From: a bacterium
GTDB lineage: Bacteria > Hydrothermota > Tepidihabitantia > SM23-42 > JAOAFX01
Length of the DNA stretch: 51,457 nt
Assembly (NCBI GenBank): GCA_036382775.1
Contig: DASVHD010000050.1
Coordinates: 1-51,457, forward strand
Direction of reading: 5' to 3'
Position 1 is the stretch's first letter. Each line of letters begins with the position of its first letter. The translations under genes were made by a program, and so were the position numbers. Shown here one piece after another: positions 2,884 through 17,852 of this stretch. The notes under the pieces are model-generated. The model did not search any database, was not told where the DNA came from, and saw only the letters and a list, made by a program, of their open reading frames with translations.

Positions 2884-5800
2884 TCAGCGAAGCAGAACGG
2901 CCTTTTCCGTCCACTTCTCCTCGCCCGTTTCCAGTCTAACGAAATAAACGCCAGCGGGGACGTTTCTACCGATTTCATCGGTACCATCCCACTGGATGGA
3001 AGCAGGTAGTAAGTAGTCAGTAGCAGGTAGATTAAAAGACTTTATTAACCTACCAGCAGCATCATAGATCTTCAATAACATTGGAGATTGGGCATTCATT
3101 TGATCCGCCATACTGTGTGGCGGATTAGAATTTTTTATTTGGAATTTAATCAACATGTTCCCCGAAGACGGATTCGGTGCCACCGACAGCATCGTCTTAC
3201 CCACCCCTCTTATCCCCAACTCATCAATACCCGTCGATGAATGGATAAACATGGTGAAATAGACCTGCCCTTGGTAAGCGCCGCTGTTCCCTTCAAAGTT
3301 GACGGTAAAACCGATGATCGTATCGGTGGGATTGGAATCAATGATAACCCCGTAAGGTTCGATCGTGTTTGCCGCGGTGCTGTCGACAAATATGTCGCCA
3401 AAGTCGGCCAGACTGTCCGTGATCACGGCCGATGAGGAGCTGGTTCTGATCGTGCCGAGGGTCCCGAAGACATTGTCGTTCCCGTCGTTGCCCACCGATA
3501 CCGTGACCGCGAGCGTTTCACCCGGCTCGAAAATACCATTGTTATTGCCGCCCAGCGAATCATCTACTACTGCGCTGACCAGATATAACCAGGGGTTTAA
3601 CGGTTCAAAAGGCGGTTTTGTCGTTATTAGCAGCGCCCTGCTGTCGATCAATGCCGCGGCATTCTGGTCATAACTGCCGTTATATACATATTCTAAACCA
3701 CGCATCTGAGTCTCATCCTCGATGCCGACGGAATTGCTCGTTGCGTCGGCAACATGGTTATAAAGGAACAGGATTTCGCCATCGCCGGTCGGTGTCGGGT
3801 GATATACCGGATCCCGGCATATGATCTGGAATGTCTCGAGGTTATTAACTGAATCGTAATGGCTGCACTGGTAGTATTCCAGGATCCAACGATGGGCGGT
3901 CGAGTCATAGTACTGATAAATGTCGCCATTGGCTCCGGGGTTGAGGTCATCCCAGAAACCCGATAAAAACCTGGATGGTGCAGCCGGCGAGGGTATCGGC
4001 GTATTCATGCCAAAACGATGGGTCGAATACCCAAGCTCGGCAAACCCATTGGAGCACAGACCGATCGTATTGTAAGTTATGCTATAATATGGAAAATCGA
4101 AGGGCAAAGGAACAGTTACCGTGTCGGCATCCTCGTCCGTTATCTCCGAAACGATCATTCCCGGACCACCGGCAGCCGTCGCGATCTCCAACCAGTCATA
4201 CACCGGAGCGTTGCCGGTCAGTGTATCCGTATCGTCATAGATATAGTAACCGTAAAGATCGGGTCCGGTTGAACTGTTCGAACCCGTTGTCAGTACCGAA
4301 AAACTGTCGTTCCATACATGCCCGCTGTCATCGTTGATCGCCAGCGCGAACCGGATCGCGTGGGCGACCGCGTCCGGTCTGAGAGCAAAAACGAAAGGGT
4401 TTAAACCGACGGCGACCGAATCGGCCGGGACATCACCGTAATACGACACGCTGTCGCTCATTATCGTAAATGAATCGGCTGTTGACAGCGTCGCTTTTAC
4501 GCCGGTGGCGGCATCAATGCCCAGGTTCGTAATGCTCACACCGAGCATGATAATTTCCGCAGGGTCGACCAGACCATCATCGTCGCCCAAAGAATCCTCG
4601 ACCGCGCAACCATCATAGGCGAGATACGCGCTGCCGCCGCTCACCGGGATCTGTGCTTCGTACGGATTCAGATTCTTGCCGATCACAGTCAGATCAAGCA
4701 TCCCCGGATACGGTATGGCCAGCGCAAACGACACCGTCCCCATACTGTCGGTATGACCGACCTGATAGACAATCGTATCCATGACGATACAGACTGGCGC
4801 GCTTTTTAAAAAACTGTCGGCCTGCTGGACAGTGACGGTCAGGGTATCCTGGATACCGGCATAGAGGATCGAATCATGGGTCACCGTGATCAACCTGGGC
4901 ATGGCGGTCCAGACATTCATCTCAGGATCGCCGATCGTATTAAACCCGTAATATTCAGATGATGATGAATACTGCTGGTATACATATTGCCGGCCCTGCT
5001 CGCAGGCTTCACCAAAGGTGGTCTTCCGGTCGGCGAACAAGGCGTCGAAGAAACCCACGCAAACCGCACTCCGGAGATAAGCCTGATGTGAGATTACCGT
5101 CGTGGTCGCGAAATAACCCGACGCCCCCTTTGGATTCGCAGCCGTTCCCGTAAGAAACCACATCTCGGCACCGGCCGGCGTACCGCCCGTACCTAAGGTC
5201 GAGCAGGTGAACGAAAGTACGATCGGCAACCTTGCGCCGTTCGCGGTCAGTGATGGATTCACTGAGAACGGATCCCACCAGTTGTTGACGCCTTGTCCCC
5301 GGTACACTACAAAGGCACGGCCCTCGTTTACCCGGTTGATGACGTCGGTCGTATTGTTGCCACTGCGCCGGTTCAGCGTGTCAATGTTCCTGTAACCGGC
5401 TGCTCTCATCAGGCTGCGGGCATGCCTGACATCGCTCCAGTATATGGAATCGCTGTAAGTCTCGTAATCATCCCGCACGATCAGGCAAGCGTCAATGAGC
5501 CATGAAGTGTCGGTCAAGTCCGGAGTGCGTTCATAGAGCAGGATCTTGTTGACCACATTCTGTGCTTCCGCGTCGCTGTGCACGGTCAGCCTTCCGGACA
5601 GGATCTCATTATATATATCGCCATCCATGTTCGTATAATAATTATCCGAATAAGTACCGCTAACCGTTGGATAAGGCAGATAATTACCGGCACCCACCAA
5701 TAGAACATACTCGGGCGGGATCTGCCATGAACTATAGGCGTTCATGATGTAACTCCGGATCTGAGCTGCTGACGATCCCGTTTCCGAGAGTTTTACGACC

Positions 5801-5949
5801 TTGGCGCGCATGCCCTTTTTATTTTTCCACTGCGCCAGGGGCAGGACCGCGTTGTAAAAATTATCATGCGTGATGACGAGATATCGGGCTCCGATATCCT
5901 GGCTAAAAACTAAACCCATACCTATAAAAAAAATGATAAATCGTTTCAT
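2884..5949 (-). CDS. C25 (gingipain-like) family protein with T9SS sorting domain
   Basis: A 1021-residue predicted secreted protein. I chose the ATG at 5949 over one 12 codons upstream because GGGAG sits 6-7 nt before it and the signal peptide (MKRFIIFFIGMGLVFSQ) then begins the protein. Order: C25-like domain about 20-370, CARDB-like module near 453 (GDDDGLVDPAE), nidogen-like beta-sandwich about 567-760, second CARDB-like module near 800, FlgD-like sorting domain about 917-1021 ending in KAVLLR. Cys249 matches the gingipain nucleophile (LPIVLSFTC), but the catalytic-His position is Gln219 (YRGQG). In the sorting domain a palindromic DNA element (3103-3125) is translated in frame. Likely exported, and inactive or altered as a protease. 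Confidence 0.88.
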   Translation of the reverse strand: MKRFIIFFIGMGLVFSQDIGARYLVITHDNFYNAVLPLAQWKNKKGMRAKVVKLSETGSSAAQIRSYIMNAYSSWQIPPEYVLLVGAGNYLPYPTVSGTYSDNYYTNMDGDIYNEILSGRLTVHSDAEAQNVVNKILLYERTPDLTDTSWLIDACLIVRDDYETYSDSIYWSDVRHARSLMRAAGYRNIDTLNRRSGNNTTDVINRVNEGRAFVVYRGQGVNNWWDPFSVNPSLTANGARLPIVLSFTCSTLGTGGTPAGAEMWFLTGTAANPKGASGYFATTTVISHQAYLRSAVCVGFFDALFADRKTTFGEACEQGRQYVYQQYSSSSEYYGFNTIGDPEMNVWTAMPRLITVTHDSILYAGIQDTLTVTVQQADSFLKSAPVCIVMDTIVYQVGHTDSMGTVSFALAIPYPGMLDLTVIGKNLNPYEAQIPVSGGSAYLAYDGCAVEDSLGDDDGLVDPAEIIMLGVSITNLGIDAATGVKATLSTADSFTIMSDSVSYYGDVPADSVAVGLNPFVFALRPDAVAHAIRFALAINDDSGHVWNDSFSVLTTGSNSSTGPDLYGYYIYDDTDTLTGNAPVYDWLEIATAAGGPGMIVSEITDEDADTVTVPLPFDFPYYSITYNTIGLCSNGFAELGYSTHRFGMNTPIPSPAAPSRFLSGFWDDLNPGANGDIYQYYDSTAHRWILEYYQCSHYDSVNNLETFQIICRDPVYHPTPTGDGEILFLYNHVADATSNSVGIEDETQMRGLEYVYNGSYDQNAAALIDSRALLITTKPPFEPLNPWLYLVSAVVDDSLGGNNNGIFEPGETLAVTVSVGNDGNDNVFGTLGTIRTSSSSAVITDSLADFGDIFVDSTAANTIEPYGVIIDSNPTDTIIGFTVNFEGNSGAYQGQVYFTMFIHSSTGIDELGIRGVGKTMLSVAPNPSSGNMLIKFQIKNSNPPHSMADQMNAQSPMLLKIYDAAGRLIKSFNLPATDYLLPASIQWDGTDEIGRNVPAGVYFVRLETGEEKWTEKAVLLR
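3103..3125. repeat. Small palindrome inside a sorting-domain coding region
   Basis: An inverted repeat with arms ATCCGCC/GGCGGAT around a 9-nt centre. The same element, differing at two central bases, lies at 13082-13102 inside another gene but is read in a different frame. The DNA, not the peptide, is therefore what is shared. Confidence 0.75.
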
Positions 5950-5983
5950 TATATCTCCCTTCGGGAATTGTGTTGTAAATATC

Positions 5984-6011
5984 ATTATATGCCGAATCGG
6001 GTAATAGTCAA
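5984..6011 (-). promoter_or_regulatory. Promoter of the C25-like gene 2884-5949
   Basis: TTGACT (6006-6011), a 16-nt spacer and a perfect TATAAT (5984-5989) on the minus strand, 34 nt before the ATG at 5949, which has its own ribosome binding site. Confidence 0.75.
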
Positions 6012-6058
6012 GGGTAATACAAAATACTTGCCAGGCGGTCTATATGCCCGGACTAGAA

Positions 6059-9052
6059 CTAACGGACAATAATGACTTTCTGCATCCGGCTGTCGTCCCC
6101 AGTGTCAAGATGGATGAAATAAACGCCGGCTGGCGCGATTCTGCCGACTTCATCGGTACCATCCCAAGTAATCGAGTAATCGAGTAATTGGGTAATTGGT
6201 AATTGATAAAATGATTTTACCAACCTGCCTGTTGTATCGTAAATCTTGATTGAAATTTGAGATTTGGTCCCTGACTTAATCAGGGATGAAATTTGAAACT
6301 TAATCGTAAGATTTCTGGTAGACGGATTGGGGTACGCGCGGAAACCGACGATCGCGTTCGGCCCCATCCTGCCCGGCTCTTCCTGGATCCCGGTGTATAT
6401 ACCGAAAAAATGCATGATGGAATCCAACAGCGCCCCCTTTGTCGATACGCCGCTCGCGTCGATCAGGGCGCCCAGTTCAAATGACGCTCCGACCGTCCGG
6501 TAATTACCGGCATTGTACGCGACTCCGCAATTATAATAATCGTCCTGGTCGCTGAATATTAAAAATGAACCGCTCGTGGGATTGATCTGGTCCATAAATT
6601 GGTTCTCGCCGCCGTACTGAAAGATCATACCGGCTGTAAAAGCATTGTTCGCGCCGGCTACCGGGCCCATATCGCTGCTTCCGTCCCCGGCCGGCTGGAT
6701 GCCAAAATGCGGGGCAAAATTGTAGCCGTTCATCATCGGGTCATAATACCAAACGTCGCCGCCCTCCAGGTACAGCCTTCCACCGCTATTCATGAAATCA
6801 ACCAGGGCTGTGGCTTCAGGGCTGCCCGCGTAAATGATAAGGTTATTCGGATAGACCCCGACGCACACGAATACCGCCTGGTAAAGCGTAAGGTCGGCGG
6901 GCAGCGAGGTCGCGTAATCACCGGTATACCCCAGCGCGGTCAGGGTCGAATTCATGACAATACCCGGATTGGGAGTCTGATCCGGGTTCCAGATCAGATA
7001 GTTCTTTTTTCCAACGACCAGAAAGAACTCAATGGTATCGACTGACCACCCGGTGGTGATCTCAACGCTCAGGTCTACCGTGGTGCCGATCGGTGTCATG
7101 CTGTCAGCCGTGATAATGAAGGGATCTACCACGTTGTCGCGCACGCTGTCAGGAGCGATGCTTTGGTAGATACTGACGGAATCATCGATCCGTAAGTACG
7201 TACTCGCCGCGACCCGGCATACTGCATGGGGATCGGCGGCGGTCTCGGAACCGGTGTTCTCCACGGCAAGGATCAGGTTCGCGGTTTCACCCGGCTCCAG
7301 CGTGTTATTCCCATTGCCGCCCGTGACCGTCGAATGGTCATATATCAGCTTCGGGGCGCAGACATACACTGAGAACACCGAAGGAAATGTATCATCGGCG
7401 CTAATGCATGAAAGGTCGAAATCGATCCTTGCCTGGTCATCACAAAAGCTATCAACATCGAAAATAAAGGGCGGATCTGAAAGCGCAGAATCATTCGGGG
7501 CGATATCGAGAAAATCCGTTAACGAATCGATTACGGTCGCTATGCTGCCGGTGACCCTGAGCACACCTGTAACGCCCAGTGCCGTGTCGCTGCCGTAATT
7601 CTTGACCCAGACAGGCAGGGTGATGATCTCACCGGGATTGGCGCGGCCGTTGTTGTTGCCGCTGACCGTGTCGACGATCTCGTGCTTCAGGTAAGTGACA
7701 AAACTGCCTTCCGGGCTGACCAGTATATATCCCTCATAAGGCAAAAGCGTATGACCGGTCACGGTGAGATAGATCGTATCCATACCGGGAACCGTAAAAG
7801 AGATAGAAACATTACCTGAAGAATCCGTCAGACCGGTCTCGTATATTATCGTATCTGACTGCATGGCGCAGACCAGCGCGGCAGGCTCGGGCTGACCGTT
7901 GACGTTGACGTTAACAGTTATGCTATTGTAGCCCAGATGGACAACCACAGGGTGCGTGATCACCGGTCGCCGCGGGTTGGAGATCCAGATATTCATTTCC
8001 GGGTCGCCGATCGTTGTCCAGCCGCGGTATTCGTTCGTCGCCCCGTATAGGTGATAAACATTCATACGGCCTTTCTCGCACGCCTCACCAAAGGTCTTTT
8101 TCCCTTCCATGAACACAGCACTGGCAAAACCTTTGTTCACGGCGCTTCGCAGATGAGCCCCGCCGCCAATCACTGTCGTCGTCGAAAAGTAACCGGCTGC
8201 GCCTTTCGGCGTTGTCGGAGTGCCCGTCAGGAACCAGCGCTCGGCAACCGCCGGCGTTGCTCCTGTACCCATGCAGCAGCAGGTCATGGACAGCACGATC
8301 GGAAGTTTCACGCCGTTATTACTGGCATCGGGATTGCAGTTAAAAGGAGAATACCAGTTGTTAAGGCCCGATCCCCGGTACACGACAAACATGCAACCTT
8401 CGTTGACCGCGTTGATGACGTCGGTCGAGTTATCGCCGTAAATATCAGCTAAAGTGTCGATCCCTACATAACCCGCGCCATCCATAAGCTGTGCCCAATA
8501 ACGCATATTCTCCAGGTAGATCGAGTCGCTCGTCCAGCTACCGTCAGTATTGGCGATCGCCACGCCTTTCAAAAACCTCGAAGTATCGCTCGTATCCGGA
8601 TGCCTTTCATAGACAAGGATTTTATTGACCACGGTCTTGGCTTCGAGCGTATCATGGACTGTAAGCCGTCCTGACAAGATATCATTGAACACATCCCCGT
8701 TCATATCGGTATAGTAATTGTCAGTATATGTACCGGACTGGGGAAATGGTATAAAATTAGGTGCTCCGACCAGCAGTAGGAACTCAGGCTTGATCTGCCA
8801 GTTATTGTACGCGTCCAAGATGTAATTCCGGATCTGGTCCGCGGTGGACCCTACGTCCGACAGCCGGACGATCTTTGCACGCATGCCTTTCTTGTGCTTC
8901 CATGCTGCGAGCGGCAGAGCGGCGTTATAGAACTGATCGTGCGCGATAACCAGGTATTTGGCGCCGGTCTCCTGACCAAATAGGGATGCTGCAATAATAA
9001 AATACAGCGAGATAAGTAATAAAGATTTACGGCAAATCATGGATATTTGCAT
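6059..9052 (-). CDS. C25 (gingipain-like) family protein with flavodoxin-like module and T9SS sorting domain
   Basis: A 997-residue predicted secreted protein. Starts at 9052 and 9040 are both possible and neither has a clear ribosome binding site; the -10 box ends 14 nt before 9052, so the leader is very short. After the signal peptide the C25-like domain spans about 30-375. Two CARDB-like modules follow (near 458 and 585), then a region around 685-885 that looks flavodoxin/ThuA-like (GGRLYLEGGDVWY), and a sorting domain about 905-997. The Cys site is present as MTCCCMG; the His site is Ser (YRGSG). It shares the central module with 9361-12786 but not with 2884-5949, so the paralogues have exchanged internal domains. 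Confidence 0.87.
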   Translation of the reverse strand: MQISMICRKSLLLISLYFIIAASLFGQETGAKYLVIAHDQFYNAALPLAAWKHKKGMRAKIVRLSDVGSTADQIRNYILDAYNNWQIKPEFLLLVGAPNFIPFPQSGTYTDNYYTDMNGDVFNDILSGRLTVHDTLEAKTVVNKILVYERHPDTSDTSRFLKGVAIANTDGSWTSDSIYLENMRYWAQLMDGAGYVGIDTLADIYGDNSTDVINAVNEGCMFVVYRGSGLNNWYSPFNCNPDASNNGVKLPIVLSMTCCCMGTGATPAVAERWFLTGTPTTPKGAAGYFSTTTVIGGGAHLRSAVNKGFASAVFMEGKKTFGEACEKGRMNVYHLYGATNEYRGWTTIGDPEMNIWISNPRRPVITHPVVVHLGYNSITVNVNVNGQPEPAALVCAMQSDTIIYETGLTDSSGNVSISFTVPGMDTIYLTVTGHTLLPYEGYILVSPEGSFVTYLKHEIVDTVSGNNNGRANPGEIITLPVWVKNYGSDTALGVTGVLRVTGSIATVIDSLTDFLDIAPNDSALSDPPFIFDVDSFCDDQARIDFDLSCISADDTFPSVFSVYVCAPKLIYDHSTVTGGNGNNTLEPGETANLILAVENTGSETAADPHAVCRVAASTYLRIDDSVSIYQSIAPDSVRDNVVDPFIITADSMTPIGTTVDLSVEITTGWSVDTIEFFLVVGKKNYLIWNPDQTPNPGIVMNSTLTALGYTGDYATSLPADLTLYQAVFVCVGVYPNNLIIYAGSPEATALVDFMNSGGRLYLEGGDVWYYDPMMNGYNFAPHFGIQPAGDGSSDMGPVAGANNAFTAGMIFQYGGENQFMDQINPTSGSFLIFSDQDDYYNCGVAYNAGNYRTVGASFELGALIDASGVSTKGALLDSIMHFFGIYTGIQEEPGRMGPNAIVGFRAYPNPSTRNLTIKFQISSLIKSGTKSQISIKIYDTTGRLVKSFYQLPITQLLDYSITWDGTDEVGRIAPAGVYFIHLDTGDDSRMQKVIIVR
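6268..6286. repeat. Palindrome in sorting-domain coding region
   Basis: TCCCTGA-CTTAA-TCAGGGA, a near-perfect inverted repeat flanked by reiterated GAAATTTGA/GAGATTTGG words, lies in the loop after the KFQI strand of the sorting domain. It is translated in frame. Confidence 0.65.
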
Positions 9053-9066
9053 TGTATGCTTTATAT

Positions 9067-9095
9067 ATTATAAGCACCGTGAAGACTTAAGTCAA
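9067..9095 (-). promoter_or_regulatory. Promoter of the C25-like gene 6059-9052
   Basis: TTGACT (9090-9095), a 17-nt spacer and TATAAT (9067-9072). The palindrome GACTTAAGTC (9084-9093) overlaps the -35 box exactly as upstream of the gene ending at 2694. Confidence 0.75.
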
Positions 9096-9200
9096 GTGGC
9101 AATGTGACAAGCATAAAAGATGAGGTTGGGAAGATAAGAAGCTGTGAGGCTGCGATTTTTTATCCTTCCATGTATTCAGCTTTTCATAACTTCCCAAACT
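9082..9200. repeat. Intergenic repeat, copy 2 (other copy 2743-2880)
   Basis: Aligns with 2743-2880 over roughly 110 bp including ACTTAAGTCAAG, GGCAAT, the purine-rich tract and ATTTTTTATCCTTCCATG. In both places it lies between the 3' end of an upstream C25-like gene and the promoter of the next, which suggests it was duplicated together with the genes. Confidence 0.7.
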
Positions 9201-9336
9201 TAAAAAATTCGAAGTTGAGAGGATAGGAAGTTGGGAGGATATGATCCTTTCTCTCATTATTTCCGCTCTTCATAACCTCTTAACCTCGCCATTTTGGCTC
9301 AAATCCTGTTTGTGATTTGACTGCCAAAATGAGCGT

Positions 9337-9359
9337 CCCGTTTTCGAAGAAAACACGGG
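9337..9359 (-). terminator. Hairpin just past the C25-like gene 9361-12786
   Basis: CCCGTTTTC pairs with GAAAACACGGG apart from a two-base bulge (CA), starting one base after the stop codon. There is no long T-run, so its action as an intrinsic terminator is only probable. Confidence 0.45.
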
Positions 9360-9360
9360 G

Positions 9361-12300
9361 CTACCTTAAAAGAATCGCCTTCTCTGTCCACTTCTCCCCG
9401 TCCGCTTCCCCTGCGGTGCCAGTGGCCCCTACGGGACCGATGGCCAGCCGCACGAAATACACGCCGGCGGGGACACGACGACCGTTTTCATCGGCACCGG
9501 TCCAAGTGATTTGGTTAAATGGTTGAATGGTTAAATGGTTAAATGATTTCACCAGTCTGCCGGCCGCGTCATAGATTTTGATGTAGTAGGGCAAACCTTC
9601 AGGTTTGCTTGACTTAGCATGGCTAAAGCCTTGCCCTACTGAATCTTGCGGCTTACTACTTACTACATACTTTATTACGGTCCGTCCAAAGGAAGGGTTC
9701 GGCCATACCCTGAGCCCGCGGAACTCAAGATCATCCTTCATTGACAGCCCCTCGCCCACCGCCTGACCCGGCAGGATGCCAAAATAACGCATTATGGAAT
9801 CGGCCAGCGCGAGCTTTGTCGACGGCGGCGAGCCGTCCACCATGCCGCCGAATTCTACCGAGATGCCGACCGTCCGGTGATTCGCTGCCACACCGCAATT
9901 ATTACTGTTATAAACGTTCCTGAGCACGGCGATGCCGTTCCCCGTAGGGTCTATCCGGTCGATGGATGAGCTTTCGCCGGTATAGCTAAAACTCATCTGG
10001 TTCGTGAATGTCCCGGACACGCCGATCAGACCGGTGAAATAACCGATATTGCCCTGGATCGCGTCGATCGAAAACTGCGATGCAAAATCATAGCCGCCGC
10101 TAAGAGGGTCATTGTACCAGACGTCGCCGCCCTCCAGGTACATTCGCCCGCCGGCATTAAGATGGCGGACGATCTCGAATATATCGGGGTTCGAATATGA
10201 GATCGTGTACTTGTTGGGATACATGCCCAGGCTGGCGAAAAACACTTTATAAATATTCAAAAACCCGGCCGGAAAGCCCTGGGTGTAGTCACCCAGATAC
10301 CCGAGGGCTGCCAGTTTCGTATGCATGACAAAACCGCTCGTGTGGTTGGGATCCGGGTCCCAGACGACGTAATCGCGCTGACCGATATAGACCGTGAAAT
10401 CCAGCGTGTCGCGGTAAGCGCCGGATTCAAGCACGATTTTTAAGTTCACCGCGTGACCCGCCGGCGACAATGAATCACCCGATATCAGGAAGGGATCAGA
10501 ATGGTTGGACCCGATACCGTCGGGCGGGAGCAAACCGAAATAGGCTTCGCCGTCGATCACGTGAAAGAATGAATCAGCGCATACCAGCGTGCCGGTGATA
10601 CTGTCCGCGATCCCCGAACCGATATTATGGAGTTCCAGATATAGCGGCGCCGTATCCCGCGGCATGACATATTTCAGAGTATCGTTCACCCAGTGTTGAG
10701 TGATGACAAGCATTGCCGAGTGATTGATCAATTCGATATCATAGATCCACGTTGAATCCAGAGCATCCGAAAGCGTGCACCGCAGCTTGATGACATGCTG
10801 GTCAGGGCATCCGGAGTCGACCAGCACATTGAACCCGTCGGCGCCGGTCCAGGCTGTGTCCGCGGGCAGGATATTGCCAAAGCCCTTAAGCGTATCGTGA
10901 AGCGTATAATACGGATCGATCGTATCTCTCTGGATCACGCCGGTGACTGCCACGGCGATCGAATCGCCGATATTTTTTATCCACACCGGCATCTCGATGT
11001 CTTCTGCCGGATTCACAAAATAGTCACCGTTCCCAGTTCCATTGGCGGTGTCCAGGACCGCGTGTGACATATAAATAAGATACGGCCGCGCGCTGTACAC
11101 CAGCACATTAAAGAACGATATCCAGGTATGGCTGTCTGCATCGGTCATGACCAGCTTGAGCTTGACCAGGTGACTGTCCGGACAATACTGGTCGATTATA
11201 ATATTAAAACCGTCCGCCGACGTAAATGCCGAATCCAGGCTGGCAATGTCGCCGATCGCTTTGATTGTATCGGCGATCTGAAAATAGGGATCGGCCTGCG
11301 CTTTCTCAAGGATGGCGGTCACGCCGTGCGCAGTGGAATCACCGACGTTGAGCATCCAGACCGCCAGTTCTATATCCTCGCCGTTATTTGGTATGTAATT
11401 GCCGTTGCCGCCGGTAGTGTCCAGGACCAGGTGAAAATCGTACATGAGCGAGGGACCACCCTGATAACCGGCCAGGACCGTATCCGTCTGCGGCAAAAGG
11501 TTCCTGCCCGTCACCGTGACCAGAGCCGTATCCGAGATGGGGAGTGTATCAATGAACGTTACTGTGCCGCTGGCGTTGGTGCGCCGGTAGTGGTAAACCG
11601 TTGTGTCTTTTCTCGCTCTTATGCATACCAGCGCGCTTTCCACCGGCTGATAATCATGCTTCACGGTTACGATTAGTGATTCCCCGATCCATACCCTCGG
11701 CCAGTGCGTCACGTCCAGCGATCTGGGCGTGCCGGTCCAGACCGTCATTTCAGGATCGCCCAGGCATGTCCAGGAGTTGTATTCCTGGGTATTCCCGAAC
11801 GTGTGGACATAAGTCTGACGGCCCCACTCGGCCGCTTTGCCGAGTGTTGCCATGCTGTCACAGAAGATATTCCGCAGGGTACCCTTGGCAAGCGCACTCC
11901 TTTTCTCGGCCGCTTCCATCAGCATGTCGGTCGTTCCGTAAAATCCAACCGCGCCCTTAGGCTCGTCCGGTGTTCCGGCATACATCCATTCGTATCCAAT
12001 CTCTTCGATCGTCGCGCACGTGCCCGAAATAATGATCGGCATTTTGTACCCGTTGTGGCAATCCGTGAGGGGATAGATGTCGTAGAATGGATAGTCCCAG
12101 TAATACCCGCCGACCCCCCGGTACAAAATATATGTCCGCCCGTCGTTCCATGCCTGGATCACATCGTCGCTGTTATTATTACCGGCGTACTGCGAAAAGG
12201 AATCAACATGCGGGAAACTGGCGTTGTCCATTAGGCGGTGCGCATAATCGGCGTCAGCAAAATACGTGGAGTCCGAGTACGGCGGGTAATCATCTTCGTT

Positions 12301-12786
12301 GGCGATGGTAACCGCCTTTCTGAACCAGTCCGGGTCGTCCATAAAAGGTGTTTTCTCGTAACCAAGGATCTTGTTGACGATGGTCTTTACATGCACGGTG
12401 TCGAACACCCACAGCCGCGCCGGTATCAGTTCGTTGTAGAAATCCCCAACGACATTCGCATAATAATTATCGCTGTACGATAAATCGTAATTGTAAGTAA
12501 AACGCACGAATGGGATCTGCTGGGGATTGCCGACCAGCAGCAGGTATTCGGGTTTTATCTGCCAGTTATTATAGGCATTGACGATGTACGATTTTATCTG
12601 GGTTGAATCGCTGCCGGTCTCGGACAGGCGGACGATCTTTGCCTTCATGCCTTTTTGCGTTTTCCAATCGGCCAGCGGCACCAGCGCGTCATAATAACTG
12701 TCATGCGTAATGATCAGGTAACGCGCGCCGCTCTGCGCAAAAACCGATCCGAGGAACACAGCAGCGAGGATCGCGATCCTTTTCAT
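9361..12786 (-). CDS. C25 (gingipain-like) family protein with three CARDB-like modules and T9SS sorting domain
   Basis: A 1141-residue predicted secreted protein with signal peptide MKRIAILAAVFLGSVFAQ. The C25-like domain is about 20-365. CARDB-like modules lie near 463, 592 and 710 (TGGNGNYIPNNGE is the first turn), a flavodoxin/ThuA-like region at about 805-1005, and the sorting domain at 1029-1141. The Cys site is retained (ISGTCATI); the His position is Val (YRGVG). Two sorting-domain loops carry extra residues: one encoded by a folded palindromic element (9585-9640), another by tandem GGTTAAATGGTTGAAT words (about 9511-9546). A third insert near 9415-9445 adds a Gly/Ala-rich stretch before the final strand. 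No clear promoter or strong ribosome binding site is visible upstream. Confidence 0.87.
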   Translation of the reverse strand: MKRIAILAAVFLGSVFAQSGARYLIITHDSYYDALVPLADWKTQKGMKAKIVRLSETGSDSTQIKSYIVNAYNNWQIKPEYLLLVGNPQQIPFVRFTYNYDLSYSDNYYANVVGDFYNELIPARLWVFDTVHVKTIVNKILGYEKTPFMDDPDWFRKAVTIANEDDYPPYSDSTYFADADYAHRLMDNASFPHVDSFSQYAGNNNSDDVIQAWNDGRTYILYRGVGGYYWDYPFYDIYPLTDCHNGYKMPIIISGTCATIEEIGYEWMYAGTPDEPKGAVGFYGTTDMLMEAAEKRSALAKGTLRNIFCDSMATLGKAAEWGRQTYVHTFGNTQEYNSWTCLGDPEMTVWTGTPRSLDVTHWPRVWIGESLIVTVKHDYQPVESALVCIRARKDTTVYHYRRTNASGTVTFIDTLPISDTALVTVTGRNLLPQTDTVLAGYQGGPSLMYDFHLVLDTTGGNGNYIPNNGEDIELAVWMLNVGDSTAHGVTAILEKAQADPYFQIADTIKAIGDIASLDSAFTSADGFNIIIDQYCPDSHLVKLKLVMTDADSHTWISFFNVLVYSARPYLIYMSHAVLDTANGTGNGDYFVNPAEDIEMPVWIKNIGDSIAVAVTGVIQRDTIDPYYTLHDTLKGFGNILPADTAWTGADGFNVLVDSGCPDQHVIKLRCTLSDALDSTWIYDIELINHSAMLVITQHWVNDTLKYVMPRDTAPLYLELHNIGSGIADSITGTLVCADSFFHVIDGEAYFGLLPPDGIGSNHSDPFLISGDSLSPAGHAVNLKIVLESGAYRDTLDFTVYIGQRDYVVWDPDPNHTSGFVMHTKLAALGYLGDYTQGFPAGFLNIYKVFFASLGMYPNKYTISYSNPDIFEIVRHLNAGGRMYLEGGDVWYNDPLSGGYDFASQFSIDAIQGNIGYFTGLIGVSGTFTNQMSFSYTGESSSIDRIDPTGNGIAVLRNVYNSNNCGVAANHRTVGISVEFGGMVDGSPPSTKLALADSIMRYFGILPGQAVGEGLSMKDDLEFRGLRVWPNPSFGRTVIKYVVSSKPQDSVGQGFSHAKSSKPEGLPYYIKIYDAAGRLVKSFNHLTIQPFNQITWTGADENGRRVPAGVYFVRLAIGPVGATGTAGEADGEKWTEKAILLR
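9585..9640. repeat. Compound palindrome (branched fold) inside sorting-domain coding region
   Basis: Perfect 10-bp outer arms (AGTAGGGCAA / TTGCCCTACT) enclose a perfect hairpin GCAAACC-TTCA-GGTTTGC (9591-9608) and a second TTAGC-ATG-GCTAA hairpin (9614-9626). The element resembles REP-type palindromes but is translated in frame in a loop of the sorting domain. Confidence 0.75.
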
Positions 12787-12799
12787 TTTCTTACGCTTT

Positions 12800-12949
12800 T
12801 CCCTTTATCTTCAATCTTTTTTAACCTCTTATCCTCATAACTTCCCATCTTCAATCCTTTTCATATCCCCGCATCTTTTCGTCTTCTCGTCCCCGCATCC
12901 CCTCATCTCCGTGTCTTTCTATCCCCTTACCCACTGATCCCCAAATCCC
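12800..12949. repeat. Intergenic reiterated-word tract
   Basis: A pyrimidine-rich series of short related words (CTTATCCTCATAACTTCCCATC, then CCCGCATC/CCCCTCATC/CCCCTTACCC). It separates the YCF48-like gene (ends 12950) from the next C25-like gene. No ORF or clear promoter is seen. Confidence 0.5.
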
Positions 12950-14260
12950 CTATCTTTTCAATATGACCTTGGCGGTCACAGGTATGTCACATCCGCTCAG
13001 CTGGATGAAATAGACGCCGTCAGGTGCCGGACGACCGGCATCATCTGAACCATCCCAGATGATCTGGTTAAATGGTTGAATTCCGCCATACTGCATGGCG
13101 GATAAACGGCTAAATTGTTTTATGAACCTGCCTGCTGCATTAAAGATTTGTACTGAAATTTGTGATTTGGAATTTGTTTGGCATTTGGCACTGGGAATTT
13201 GGAATTTAACCGTAAGGCTTCTCGTAAACGGATTCGGATAAATTTCCAACTTCCCGTTTCCCGCTTCCCACTTATCTGCTTCCTCGACACCCGTTCCATC
13301 GTGCCAGGTCTCGCCGCCGTCATACGTGTAAAGAATGATGCTGGTGCCGCAGGCAAGACCATGGAGCGTGTCTGAAAAGTCGACGTCAAAAAGCGTCGAG
13401 GTCGCGGGGTTGGTCTGGAACGTCCAGGTCTGACCATCGTCGTGGGAATGGATTATCGTTCCAAACCTGCCCACTGCCCAGCCCTGCCCGCCCACGAAAT
13501 CAACTGCCCTCAGGTAGAACGCGTTGCCCGGCACCGTGATCTGGTTCCAGCTGACGCCGCCGTCCGTGCTCCTCAAAACCAGGGCAGCGTAATTTTGTTC
13601 GTTGCCGCCCGCAATAATGCCGTTCAGCGCATCGAAGAAGTGAATGTCAAAATAGTCGTCATAGTTCGTGCATAAAAAAAGGGAATCCCAGACCATCCCT
13701 CCGTCGGTTGAACGCGCGATGATCGCCTGGCCGATATCCACTGAATCAGGCCAGCCTGATACGATCCAGCCCCTCAGAGTATCAATGAACGACACTCCGT
13801 ACAGTTCTGGCAGGAAGGTGAATGGTGTGAAATTCACTTCCCAGTAGGCTCCACTGTTCGTGGTCCTCAAAATAACGCCGTCTCCGCCCACGGTCCAACC
13901 GTGATTAATATCAACGAATTCCACGCGCGTGGCGTATTTCGAACCACCTCCCCCAAGCTGGATCGCCCAGTTCTGACCGCCATCGCTGGTGTAACATATC
14001 TGCCCCAGGACACCGCATGTCCAGACGTTCTGGTTTCCAAAACAAGTGACATCGAAAAACCTGCGGTCGGCCGGGTTGGCCTGCTCGAACCAGTTCACAC
14101 CGCCGTCGGTGGTTTTCAGGATAATCATGGTATCCAGGGTCACGACCCAACCTGTTGCATTGTCCGGTGCCAGGGTGCATCCATGGAAATTTTGGTATGC
14201 GAAACTGGCCGATAAACTCAGGCACCACAGCAGTCCCATAAATATCTTTATATTCCTCAT
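12950..14260 (-). CDS. YCF48/BNR-repeat (Asp-box) beta-propeller protein with T9SS sorting domain
   Basis: 436 residues. A signal peptide (about 1-21) is followed by six or so repeats with Asp-box signatures (TTDGGVNW, TSDGGQNW, STDGGMVW, STDGGVSW), typical of YCF48-like/sialidase-type propellers, and a sorting domain from about 330 ending in KVILKR. AAAGGAG lies 6 nt before the ATG. It starts 28 nt after the stop of the C25-like gene 14289-17852, so it is probably the last gene of that operon. The sorting domain contains the palindrome at 13082-13102. Such propellers in secreted proteins usually bind ligands or act as scaffolds; no enzymatic residues can be assigned. Confidence 0.85.
   Translation of the reverse strand: MRNIKIFMGLLWCLSLSASFAYQNFHGCTLAPDNATGWVVTLDTMIILKTTDGGVNWFEQANPADRRFFDVTCFGNQNVWTCGVLGQICYTSDGGQNWAIQLGGGGSKYATRVEFVDINHGWTVGGDGVILRTTNSGAYWEVNFTPFTFLPELYGVSFIDTLRGWIVSGWPDSVDIGQAIIARSTDGGMVWDSLFLCTNYDDYFDIHFFDALNGIIAGGNEQNYAALVLRSTDGGVSWNQITVPGNAFYLRAVDFVGGQGWAVGRFGTIIHSHDDGQTWTFQTNPATSTLFDVDFSDTLHGLACGTSIILYTYDGGETWHDGTGVEEADKWEAGNGKLEIYPNPFTRSLTVKFQIPSAKCQTNSKSQISVQIFNAAGRFIKQFSRLSAMQYGGIQPFNQIIWDGSDDAGRPAPDGVYFIQLSGCDIPVTAKVILKR
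13082..13102. repeat. Small palindrome interrupting a tandem-word tract in coding sequence
   Basis: Arms TCCGCC/GGCGGA, same element as 3103-3125. It sits in the middle of the GGTTAAATGGTTGAAT word tract that is uninterrupted in the paralogous loops at 9511-9546 and 14402-14440, as expected for an insertion. The reading frame is kept and it encodes SAMQYGG. Confidence 0.75.
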
Positions 14261-14288
14261 CTATGCTCCTTTCGCGCTACCCATATTT

Positions 14289-17200
14289 TCACCTTGTTAT
14301 AATGACTTTTTCAATTACCTTGTTCTCCCCCGATTGTAGTTCAATGAAATAAACACCGGCAGGAAGACGACGGCCCGCATCATCTGAACCGAACCAGGCG
14401 ATTTGGTTAAATGGTTGAATGGTTAAATGGTTGAATTGTTTTGTTAACCTGCCAGTCGCATCGTAGATCCTTAATGAAATATTTGAATAATCCCCCCCTC
14501 TTTTATCCTCCCCCTCGAGGGGGGAGGGCAAGGGTGGGGGTGAATTTTGGAATTGGGAATTGGGAATTTGGAATTTAATTATAAGGTTGCTCCTGGCAGG
14601 ATTCGGGAATATCTGCAGGTCGAGTTTTCCGCCTATTCCCGCCAGCTTCCCAAGTTCTTCCACTCCGGGATATGGATCCGGCTGGTCCGTGGTAAATTTG
14701 ATCGCCCGGTTATTGATCAGGGCGGCCGCTCCCGCCGCGTACACATTGGCGTAAGTATACTCAAGACCTGACGTATGTCCGTAGTTCTCAATACCGCACG
14801 TGGCATAGTTATGCCAGTGGTCGTCATTGCTGATCTTCTTATACTGGTAGATTATTTCGCCGTCGCCGGTCTGGGTCGGATAATATGCCGGGTCATACAG
14901 GACGATCTCAAATGTCTGCAGTTCCGCCGGCACCGGCGAGGTCGGGTTGTGCAAATGCTGGATCCTCGACCACTCGGCAATGAAACGGTGGTTCGCGGCA
15001 TCGCTATAATAACATACGTTCCCGCTGGAATCGGTGGCATTGGGATCAAGGTCGTCCCAGAACGCAGCCATGAGCAGCGGAGGCCCCAGGCTCGAGAGGA
15101 TGTGCCAGTTGTACATATCCGCGATCCACGTCGAGTCCAGAGCGGCGTAACCATTGGAGCAGATCGAGATCTTGCTGTAATTCAACCCGTAATACTTGAA
15201 ACTGAAAGGCAGCGCGACCGTGCGCGTCTGATCGTTCGCCAGCGTCAGGACAGTGCCGGACCCGCCCAGCGCCGGATCGACCTCGACCCAGCTGTAGGCC
15301 GGCGTCTCCGTGTACCCGGCGTCGGTATTGTCATAAGCGTAATAACCATAATCGTCAGGTCCTGACGGTGATGCGGTTGTCACCACTCCGATGGTCGTTG
15401 AAAAATAAACCGTGTCCCGGAAAGATTGATCTCCTGACAACAGGACATACATATCGATTACATGCCCGGGCGCGAGCTGCGGTGAAGCGTACACCGCAAA
15501 ACGGTCGCTGGCGTTCTCCGCCGAATCACCAACTGGTATGGTGCCGAAAGCGCCCAGAGAATCATTGACCGAAACACCGGGGTTGCGCGACCTCAGGACC
15601 CCGGTAATATTGCCGCCGGCAAGTCGGCCTGAATTCACGATCCAGATACTGAGGTCGGAAGTTTCGCCAGGTTCCAGAACACCGTTCCCGCCGTCCACGA
15701 TGCGGCAACGCTGTGCCCGGAACTGGGGAGCTTTAACTTCCACCCAGATCACGGAATTCCAGCTGCCCTGGCCAGACGTGACGTTCAGGTTGAATTTTAT
15801 AATGCGACCATCCTTCGCGCCAGTCGATACCGAAAAAACATACGGTGAACCGGTCGCGGTCCCGCCCGGGCTGATCGCACCAAAGCTCTTTATCGAATCC
15901 GTTATGGTCACCAGGGGATCGCTGTCGGTCAGCTTCGCGGTCACGCCGGTAGCGGTTGTTGATGTGCCGTAATTCTTTAAGGTCACGGCCATCTGGATGG
16001 TCTCGCCTGGATTGGTCTCCCCATTGTTGTTGCCGCCGGGATCGCTTATCGTGTGGCTGAGATATCCGACATAGACGGCCGAATTATTGACCAGCAAGTA
16101 TCCGCAGTAAGGGGCGCAGTTATGCTTGGAAACAGTGACGAATAAGGTATCGGGGGTCGTGGTGGAGATCTGAAAATATGCCATACCGCCGGCATCGGTG
16201 AAATCGACGGATTTGACCTCGTTTTGCTTGTATAGGCTGACCAGCGCGTCCTTTACAGGCTGCGACGATCCGGTTTGCACCGAAACCGAGATAGCGTTCG
16301 TGCCGACCGGCACGGACGACGCGTGGCTGACGTTAATGGACCGGGGTGCCGCGGTCCACAATTCGAGGGATGGATCACCCAGCAGGTTATAGGCGTTGAA
16401 ATAATATTCCACGCCGCTGTCCGGCGACACTTCGAACGGGAAGTTGAAGTACACCTCCATTTTGCCCCGGTACGTCATTGGCCCAAAACTGTATATGCTG
16501 TCCTCGGTCAAACCCCAGTAGATCCCGTAATCCAGGCAGTTGTTCCACCGGCTATGGGTCGTTGGCGTCGTCGCGCCGAAGAAACCGACCGCGCCCTTCG
16601 GCGTTACGGGATTGCCGACGCGCAGCCAGGTCTCCGCGAAACACGCCGGGTAATTGAAATTGCAGGTATTGCAGACAATACTCGTTATTACGGGAAGTTT
16701 CCACCCGTTCGTGAGGGCTACGACGTCGGTGTTGGTAAAAGTGGGACGGTCCCATCCGTAGGGATCGGCAATACCGCCCCGGTAATTGATAATGCTGACA
16801 CCCTGGTTCACGGCATTCGTGATCGCGGCCTGGCCGTTGGAAACAGGCGGATCGTATATAGTATCCACCGGGCTGATAGAATGTTGGAGCAGTTTCTCTC
16901 TGACCCACCGCTTGGTCGGTATCGGCGTGGTCATCGTATCGTAGGGATAATTGGCAGCGACCATGAGCGCGTGCTTGAACCATGTCGTGTCGGTCGTATA
17001 GGGCGTTTTTTCGTAACCCACGATCTTGGCGACCAGGGTCTGCAATTCATTGGCATTCGACACTGATAAACGGCCGACCATTATTTCGGCAATAAAGTCG
17101 CCGCCATCGATCAGGCCGTACAGATAATCAGTGATGTTGACCGGGTTTGCCGGCATCGCGAAAGCCGGCAAGCTGTCCTTATCGCCGACGAGGATGACAT

Positions 17201-17852
17201 ACTCGGGCGCAGGATCCCAGTTGTAATATGCGTTGCTGATATAATTTTTTATGGATGTGCTGGTATTCCCGGTCTGCGCCAGCGTGGCGACCGTGGTCGT
17301 CCAGCCCTTTTTTTCTTTCCAGTCAGCCAGCGGCAAAACCGCGTTGTAGAACGATGCAGGCGTAATGATCAATAAACCCTGCGGCTCGACATGAGGGTCA
17401 TATTCATAATTCAGAATAAGATTTTTATAAACCGCTGCCTGGCTGGGCGCCAGCCGGACATTATCATAACCGCGGCATGCCAGGCGCAGCACTGCTTTTT
17501 TCAAGTTAATCTCCATCCCGCGCTCGACCACCCTGTTGCGGATAATGACCGGATATATCCGGTAGCCCGCCAGGATCATGGCATTTCCTATCTCCGCGAA
17601 CCCTCCCGGTCCAACATAGTTCTGATCCCCGGAGCTTTCGATGGCAGTCGTATCACAGGCCATGGAGACAATGGTCAAGGCCGGTTCGGTGCTCGAGAAT
17701 ATGAACCTTGTTATCGTACCCGGTCCGGTCTCGCTGCCAGGTGTCAGGCTGATTTCCAGTGACGACGAGTTTTTGGCGAGAATATCTATCTGCGGATCAA
17801 TACTTGCCGGTAGCAGCGCCGAAATGAGCACGTACGACAGAAGTACGGTCAT
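14289..17852 (-). CDS. C25 (gingipain-like) family protein with N-terminal prodomain-like region, in the pgs operon
   Basis: A 1187-residue predicted secreted protein. Its ATG overlaps the stop of the LVIVD lipoprotein gene by 4 bp (ATGA), indicating translational coupling. After the signal peptide there is an extra beta-rich region of about 130 residues resembling a gingipain-type propeptide, absent from the other paralogues here. Then come a C25-like domain (about 150-520), two CARDB-like modules (near 611 and 728), a nidogen-like beta-sandwich (about 840-1045) and a sorting domain (1085-1187). The nucleophile Cys is present (ITSIVCNTC) but the His position is Gly (YRGGI). The sorting-domain loop contains a CCTCCCC/GGGGAGG palindrome insertion that encodes a Pro-rich stretch. 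Confidence 0.87.
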   Translation of the reverse strand: MTVLLSYVLISALLPASIDPQIDILAKNSSSLEISLTPGSETGPGTITRFIFSSTEPALTIVSMACDTTAIESSGDQNYVGPGGFAEIGNAMILAGYRIYPVIIRNRVVERGMEINLKKAVLRLACRGYDNVRLAPSQAAVYKNLILNYEYDPHVEPQGLLIITPASFYNAVLPLADWKEKKGWTTTVATLAQTGNTSTSIKNYISNAYYNWDPAPEYVILVGDKDSLPAFAMPANPVNITDYLYGLIDGGDFIAEIMVGRLSVSNANELQTLVAKIVGYEKTPYTTDTTWFKHALMVAANYPYDTMTTPIPTKRWVREKLLQHSISPVDTIYDPPVSNGQAAITNAVNQGVSIINYRGGIADPYGWDRPTFTNTDVVALTNGWKLPVITSIVCNTCNFNYPACFAETWLRVGNPVTPKGAVGFFGATTPTTHSRWNNCLDYGIYWGLTEDSIYSFGPMTYRGKMEVYFNFPFEVSPDSGVEYYFNAYNLLGDPSLELWTAAPRSINVSHASSVPVGTNAISVSVQTGSSQPVKDALVSLYKQNEVKSVDFTDAGGMAYFQISTTTPDTLFVTVSKHNCAPYCGYLLVNNSAVYVGYLSHTISDPGGNNNGETNPGETIQMAVTLKNYGTSTTATGVTAKLTDSDPLVTITDSIKSFGAISPGGTATGSPYVFSVSTGAKDGRIIKFNLNVTSGQGSWNSVIWVEVKAPQFRAQRCRIVDGGNGVLEPGETSDLSIWIVNSGRLAGGNITGVLRSRNPGVSVNDSLGAFGTIPVGDSAENASDRFAVYASPQLAPGHVIDMYVLLSGDQSFRDTVYFSTTIGVVTTASPSGPDDYGYYAYDNTDAGYTETPAYSWVEVDPALGGSGTVLTLANDQTRTVALPFSFKYYGLNYSKISICSNGYAALDSTWIADMYNWHILSSLGPPLLMAAFWDDLDPNATDSSGNVCYYSDAANHRFIAEWSRIQHLHNPTSPVPAELQTFEIVLYDPAYYPTQTGDGEIIYQYKKISNDDHWHNYATCGIENYGHTSGLEYTYANVYAAGAAALINNRAIKFTTDQPDPYPGVEELGKLAGIGGKLDLQIFPNPARSNLIIKFQIPNSQFQNSPPPLPSPLEGEDKRGGDYSNISLRIYDATGRLTKQFNHLTIQPFNQIAWFGSDDAGRRLPAGVYFIELQSGENKVIEKVIITR
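14507..14577. repeat. GC-rich palindrome plus AATTGGG words in sorting-domain coding region
   Basis: CCTCCCCC-TCGA-GGGGGGAGG (14507-14527) is followed by reiterated GGAATTGGGAATTGGGAATT words to 14577. All of it is translated in frame between the KFQI strand and the ISLRIYD strand, adding about 20 residues compared with sorting domains that lack it. Confidence 0.7.

Follow-up and report, generated by a model that had tools for sequence, protein, structure and literature searches.

Most known cases of protein-coding palindromes come from Rickettsia and Wolbachia, where they are spread among unrelated genes; the Rickettsia palindromic elements (RPE) were reportedly described by Ogata et al. in 2000 and 2002. 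In RPE and in the Wolbachia palindromes, dispersed palindromes lie between genes and are also read in frame as part of conserved proteins (PMC10969869, PMC2229807), which makes them the closest precedent for the repeats reported here. RPE are 100-150 bp long and occur in many unrelated genes, whereas the elements described here are palindromes of ~20-50 bp, short of the ~100-150 bp of RPE, and words of 7-8 nt, and they occupy two loops of one domain type. The phyla differ as well (here WOR-3), and the likeness is one of description.

The short palindromes with many non-coding copies, together with Y1 transposase genes in the genome, also recall REP and MITE sequences. However, a large share of the copies is coding here, and no transposase-linked copies were found at eight Y1 loci; of the MITE features inverted repeats are present, but 3 nt are replaced rather than a target duplicated. 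In the non-coding DNA of Beggiatoaceae, the heptanucleotide TAACTGA forms direct repeats (PMC4679880). These are tandem 7-nt words like some of ours, with a period that is not a multiple of three, yet there a single word is found, mostly in non-coding DNA, whereas here many words lie in frame in coding loops. With the T9SS type A sorting domains of TIGR04183/PF18962 the domains studied here have in common the fold, the D-x-x-G-R turn and the spared C-terminal hairpin; unlike those elsewhere, they have s2-s3 and s4-s5 loops filled with repeat DNA. In the literature searched, which included few subscription journals, there is no report of repeat-filled T9SS sorting-domain loops.

The window, the whole stretch of 51,457 nucleotides that was analysed, is contig 50 of a 3.06 Mb genome of WOR-3/Stahlbacteria (candidate phylum WOR-3), whose closest named relatives also belong to WOR-3/Stahlbacteria. 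PF18962 has 133 matches genome-wide at E <= 0.001, and a model of our own gives ~150 T9SS type A sorting domains in this genome. Since SprA (1.1e-20) and nine PorV-family proteins above the cut-off are encoded, a T9SS is likely present. Five neighbouring genes, all on the minus strand, encode C25 peptidases with a sorting domain, namely P0001 (2884-5985, domain ~2887-3210; PF01364 1.2e-50), P0002 (6059-9052, domain ~6062-6361), P0003 (9361-12786, domain ~9364-9732) and P0005 (14289-17852, domain 14292-14639), and a BNR/Ycf48-like repeat protein with a sorting domain, P0004 (12950-14260), as assigned by profile matches. C25 peptidases are gingipain-type enzymes. With the TIGR04183 cut-off at 23 bits, P0001 (29 bits), P0002, P0004, P0005 and the control P0006 score above it, and P0003 (20.7) and the control P0007 (22.6) just under. 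Judged from their sequences P0001-P0005 are T9SS substrates, with export predicted to proceed via the domain.

The P0005 domain was modelled with AlphaFold2 as a seven-stranded Ig-like sandwich (mean pLDDT 85.6; strands at residues 7-11, 19-24, 54-59, 65-69, 78-82, 95-103 and 106-114), and the best PDB matches to this model are T9SS CTDs (PorZ, the NucA-GldL complex, PorU and the mirolase CTD). Two loops are relevant here: loop A, domain residues 25-53, which is modelled with low confidence (pLDDT ~57-64), and loop B, residues 70-77. In the numbering of the RgpB structure they correspond to s2-s3 and s4-s5, respectively; in that system the last 22 residues, i. e. the final two strands s6-s7, suffice as export signal (PMC4804311). 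As we read the topology of the model, loops A and B appear to lie together at one end of the sandwich, with the D-x-x-G-R turn at the other. Among 149 domains of the genome, median lengths are 7 aa for loop A and 11 aa for loop B, and the longest examples have 36 and 25 aa, respectively.

All five proteins carry repeats in these loops (minus strand throughout). In P0001, loop A (KNSNPPHSMADQMNAQSPML, 3081-3140) contains the palindrome CCGCCATACTGTGTGGCGG at 3105-3123, and loop B (NLPATDYLLPAS, about 3000-3035) the 7-nt word TACTGACTACTTACTACC. Loop A of P0002 (SSLIKSGTKSQIS, 6251-6289) contains the palindrome CCCTGACTTAATCAGGG (CCCTGA-n5-TCAGGG) at 6269-6286, and its loop B (YQLPITQLLDYS, 6170-6208) the 8-nt word ATTACTCG with a score of 0.94, words being seen over about 6169-6215. 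In P0003, a compound palindrome GTAGGGCAAACCTTCAGGTTTGC...GGCTAAAGCCTTGCCCTAC with the core GCAAACCTNAAGGTTTGC is found at 9585-9640 in loop A (SSKPQDSVGQGFSHAKSSKPEGLPYY, 9582-9660), with a further word nearby at 9648-9668, and loop B (NHLTIQPFNQ, 9511-9546) is made of the 8-nt word AACCATTT. A further, third insert of P0003 (GPVGATGTAGEADG, 9405-9450) lies in the turn that joins s6 and s7, and its core CCCGTAGGGG is common to L040:7761; such inserts are rare, and of these two carriers L040 has +18 nt and P0003 a longer insert. P0004 has the word CCAAATNCCAAAC in loop A (PSAKCQTNSKSQIS, 13153-13198) and the palindrome CCGCCATACTGCATGGCGG at 13083-13101 in loop B (SRLSAMQYGGIQPFNQ, 13069-13114). 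Loop A of P0005 (PNSQFQNSPPPLPSPLEGEDKRGGDYSNIS, 14473-14577) combines AATTCC words with a ~50-bp palindromic element, CACCCCCACCC...CCCTCGAGGGGGAGG...GGGGGGGAT, the part at 14507-14577 being CCTCCCCCTCGAGGGGGGAGG plus AATTCCCAATTCCC words, and loop B of P0005 (NHLTIQPFNQ, 14402-14440) again consists of an 8-nt word; the word AACCATTTAACCATTCAACC fills loop B in both P0003 and P0005. Thus the palindromes and words that a sequence-only reading had listed in the two loops of these proteins are all present, and it had overlooked the words in loop B of P0001 and P0002, the one at 9648-9668 and the s6-s7 insert of P0003. It had also named two domains without repeats, and both are free of them: P0006 (23581-24411, minus strand) has the short ordinary loops EKPGFVI and VNEKKPAGTYS, and P0007 (44274-45800, minus strand), a beta-helix protein, has a divergent domain.

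Words were called when a 24-nt window repeated at 6-9 nt with a score >= 0.75. In the domains of the genome, the words were concentrated in loops A and B: word windows were found in loop A of 12 out of 135 domains and in loop B of 26 (38 of 270 loops together), as compared with 0/135 for the last 60 nt of the domain and 0/780 for upstream coding DNA (Fisher p ~5e-24 for loops against upstream coding). Non-coding DNA had 84 word windows in 1117, a rate that is biased because some of this DNA was fetched for its palindromes. The word sequences vary by genome (CTCCCTA, GATACAG, GGCAAAG, AATCCGA, CGGTTAA and others), and word-filled loops often have an ordinary length of 8, 10 or 12 aa. Genome-wide, exact copies of the loop B word are confined to sorting domains, with 9 matches at 6 places, one of them in a degenerate reading frame at the end of a contig; looser forms of it occur between genes.

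A similar distribution was observed in relatives, with words in 12/36 loops A and 15/36 loops B, in none of 36 domain ends and in one of 288 upstream windows. In 81 further domains, picked among the best-scoring and longest, the corresponding numbers were 41/81, 40/81, 0/81 and 5/480. CTACTCCCTACT was found in four relatives, where seven or eight genes have it in loop B and two in loop A, with about four non-coding places besides, and in a single relative both loops and non-coding DNA contain one and the same word. Since 60 non-coding windows, taken from the short flanking stretches of loci in relatives, contained no words, the case for a non-coding origin there relies on the CTACTCCCTACT search.

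Palindrome families were counted genome-wide by pattern searches, the finer loop statistics being taken from stretches around the domains; some of the counts include near-identical duplicated domains and hence represent fewer independent events. The type CCGCCAn7TGGCGG has 29 matches, ten of them in loops (2 A, 8 B) and about 11 in non-coding DNA; a reversed-pattern control gave 12 matches by chance. CCCTCGAGGGGGAG, the core of a ~50-bp element, has ~45 sites at <=1 mismatch; seven of these lie in loop A, where there is also an eighth, degenerate copy. For GCAAACCTNAAGGTTTGC, 15 sites were found at <=2 mismatches, loop A of the sorting domains accounts for six, and the control gave 0. These three families are found both outside genes and in frame inside proteins. 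For the palindrome at 6269-6286 no genuine dispersed copy was found in the DNA examined; its one further match is in an unrelated context. Exact 16-mers common with non-coding DNA, from which the reading frames of sorting domains had been masked, make up 9.0% of loop A, 0.23% of upstream coding DNA and 0% of s5-s7. The density of palindromes is higher in loops than in non-coding DNA, which is unexpected under pure tolerance; partly, this excess is due to domain duplication and amplification of paralogues.

The CCCTCGAGGGGGAG element also occurs three times at 150-bp spacing in L159-L161 (C20:40776-41089), where it belongs to a longer unit repeated in tandem. Another dispersed family, TCATTGCGAG...CTCGCAATGA, was seen in 44 distinct contexts in the loci of this genome that were examined (e. 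g. L031:12948, L050:12080) and was not noticed in sorting-domain loops. The genome has nine Y1_Tnp transposase genes (L136-L143), one of which (C34:3220) has two internal stops. That the palindromes adjoin these genes found no clear support at the eight loci examined, where one loose CCGCC/GGCGG match (L141) was present and the other two palindrome families were absent.

The same repeat DNA is read in different frames. In P0005, L031, L099 and L166 the CCCTCGAGGGGGAG element is translated as SPPPFPSPLEGEDKGGGD or something close to it, whereas in L056, L061 and L107 it gives HPHPFPPPSRGRIKEGG or something close. CCGCCAn7TGGCGG encodes PPHSMAD where it lies in loop A and, in loop B, SANQHGG or similar. 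The composite of word and palindrome seen in loop A is also present at C29:58303, without a gene. When empty and filled loops are paired, one palindrome appears at two sites as a gain of exactly 18 nt, and at both sites there are paralogues without it: in loop B AACCATTTA-ACC-ATTCAACC becomes AACCATTTA-TCCGCCAATCAGCATGGCGGA-ATTCAACC, and in loop A CCAA-ATT-CCAAAC becomes CCAA-TCCGCCACACAGTATGGCGGA-CCAAAC. In the alignment these insertions substitute 3 nt, and no target duplication is evident. L031_667 (empty) and L031_1 (filled) are close paralogues on one contig that are alike in the second half of the domain and differ in loop A. Among the 149 domains of the genome, none had its N-terminal and C-terminal halves out of frame.

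Turnover of the loops was studied with paralogues and with orthologues in relatives of other genera. In P0005 orthologues that are 87-89% identical upstream, amino-acid identity was 0-62% in loop A and 7-100% in loop B, as compared with 71-100% in s3-s4 and 62-92% in s5-s7. Thus the loops turn over much faster than the flanking protein. Between L021 and L028/L030 the change includes s1-s2, and between L027 and L029 partly so. Since a change that reaches s1-s2 points to recombination between paralogous domains, these sequences suggest that such recombination contributes to loop change. Across the domains of the genome, the types of loop A and of loop B occur in free combination; a domain tree of 73 columns is poorly resolved and shows only that loop types are mixed.

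The data are best explained, with a probability of about 0.7, by permissive loops that receive dispersed repeats in frame, combined with duplication and recombination of paralogues. Loops A and B of the Ig-like sandwich would accept nearly any in-frame peptide. Short repeats, namely palindromes of ~20-50 bp and 7-8-nt words arising or growing by slippage, would spread through the genome and be kept in coding DNA almost only in these loops, because elsewhere they would break the fold or the frame. Duplication and recombination among the ~150 paralogous domains would then copy and recombine the filled loops. We infer the neutrality of the repeats, the machinery of transposition or slippage and the relative shares of insertion and recombination. 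That s5-s7 are spared agrees with the known export signal, and as the export-critical strands s6-s7 contain no words, the repeats look like tolerated passengers. The sequence-only reading had envisaged permissive loops into which intergenic-like repeats insert while the frame is kept. This part holds, given the +18-nt pairs, the several reading frames and the 0/149 broken frames; insertion as the sole change does not seem enough, because many word loops have a normal length and orthologue changes reach s1-s2. The resemblance to intergenic repeats is borne out by the three dispersed families and not by the 6269-6286 palindrome; the loop B word is in its exact form confined to the domains, with looser forms between genes. 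A comparison of orthologues, for which it had proposed close strains and which was made here across genera, found that loops can be unrelated at 87-89% upstream identity, with the reservation that the change may include s1-s2.

Recombination could also be the only process, if loops were filled on few occasions and gene conversion and duplication then spread them, with new insertions seldom occurring. The free combination of loop types, the loop B palindrome that always sits at one site within one word and the orthologue differences that may include s1-s2 agree with this. We nevertheless consider it unlikely, as the CCCTCGAGGGGGAG element is present in at least two frames with different junctions in loop A, one palindrome lies at two unrelated sites with a net gain of 18 nt each, and the same families are present in non-coding DNA. 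An adaptive diversification, in which variation in sequence and length would be selected because the loops are accessible during transit or once at the surface, appears rather improbable from the sequences. Candidate pressures would be the choice of shuttle among PorV paralogues and the escape from proteases or phages; the nine PorV-family proteins, the fast change of the loops and their palindrome density above that of non-coding DNA speak for it. Yet elsewhere all type A domains use PorV and are recognised by shape, not sequence (PMC12618676), and the export signal maps to the spared strands s6-s7 (PMC4804311). That the loop repeats diversify the C-terminal signal functionally, as had been proposed from the sequence, is possible.

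It seems very improbable that the loops are selected amino-acid motifs in which the repetition of the DNA is incidental. The peptides NHLTIQPFNQ and RNPKSEIS do recur at the same position in several genera, so the conservation of inserts in distant relatives, which had been named as evidence against inserted repeats, is found in part; many other words, however, occur in the same loops, one word can be found in both loops and in non-coding DNA, and the reading of the same DNA in multiple frames largely refutes this explanation. The named genomes here were assembled from metagenomes, and repeats are prone to misassembly. An artefact of assembly or binning is nonetheless hardly credible, because ~20 relatives, including single-contig genomes, show the same picture, always in frame and in two loops only.

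Returning to permissive loops filled by dispersed repeats, the ~150 copies of one small domain per genome provide replicate sites for the entry of repeats in frame, and the filled loops amount to a map, drawn by nature, of where the T9SS sorting domain tolerates insertions and which of its parts are off limits. They also mean that 7-8-nt words, which are normally excluded from coding DNA, can live there. It is a long shot that the loop tracts serve as homology handles by which the ~150 domains swap halves and reshuffle secretion tags in frame; if they did, the lineage would continually renew its secretion tags without frame breakage.

Words were also observed outside intact domains. L111 (C45:56620), located where a contig ends, is a degenerate sorting domain with an apparently broken frame and carries the loop B word. 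In the window, a 72-nt non-coding repeat, 89% identical, lies at 2791-2862 and 9122-9193, downstream of two C25 peptidase genes, and is itself built of 8-nt words.
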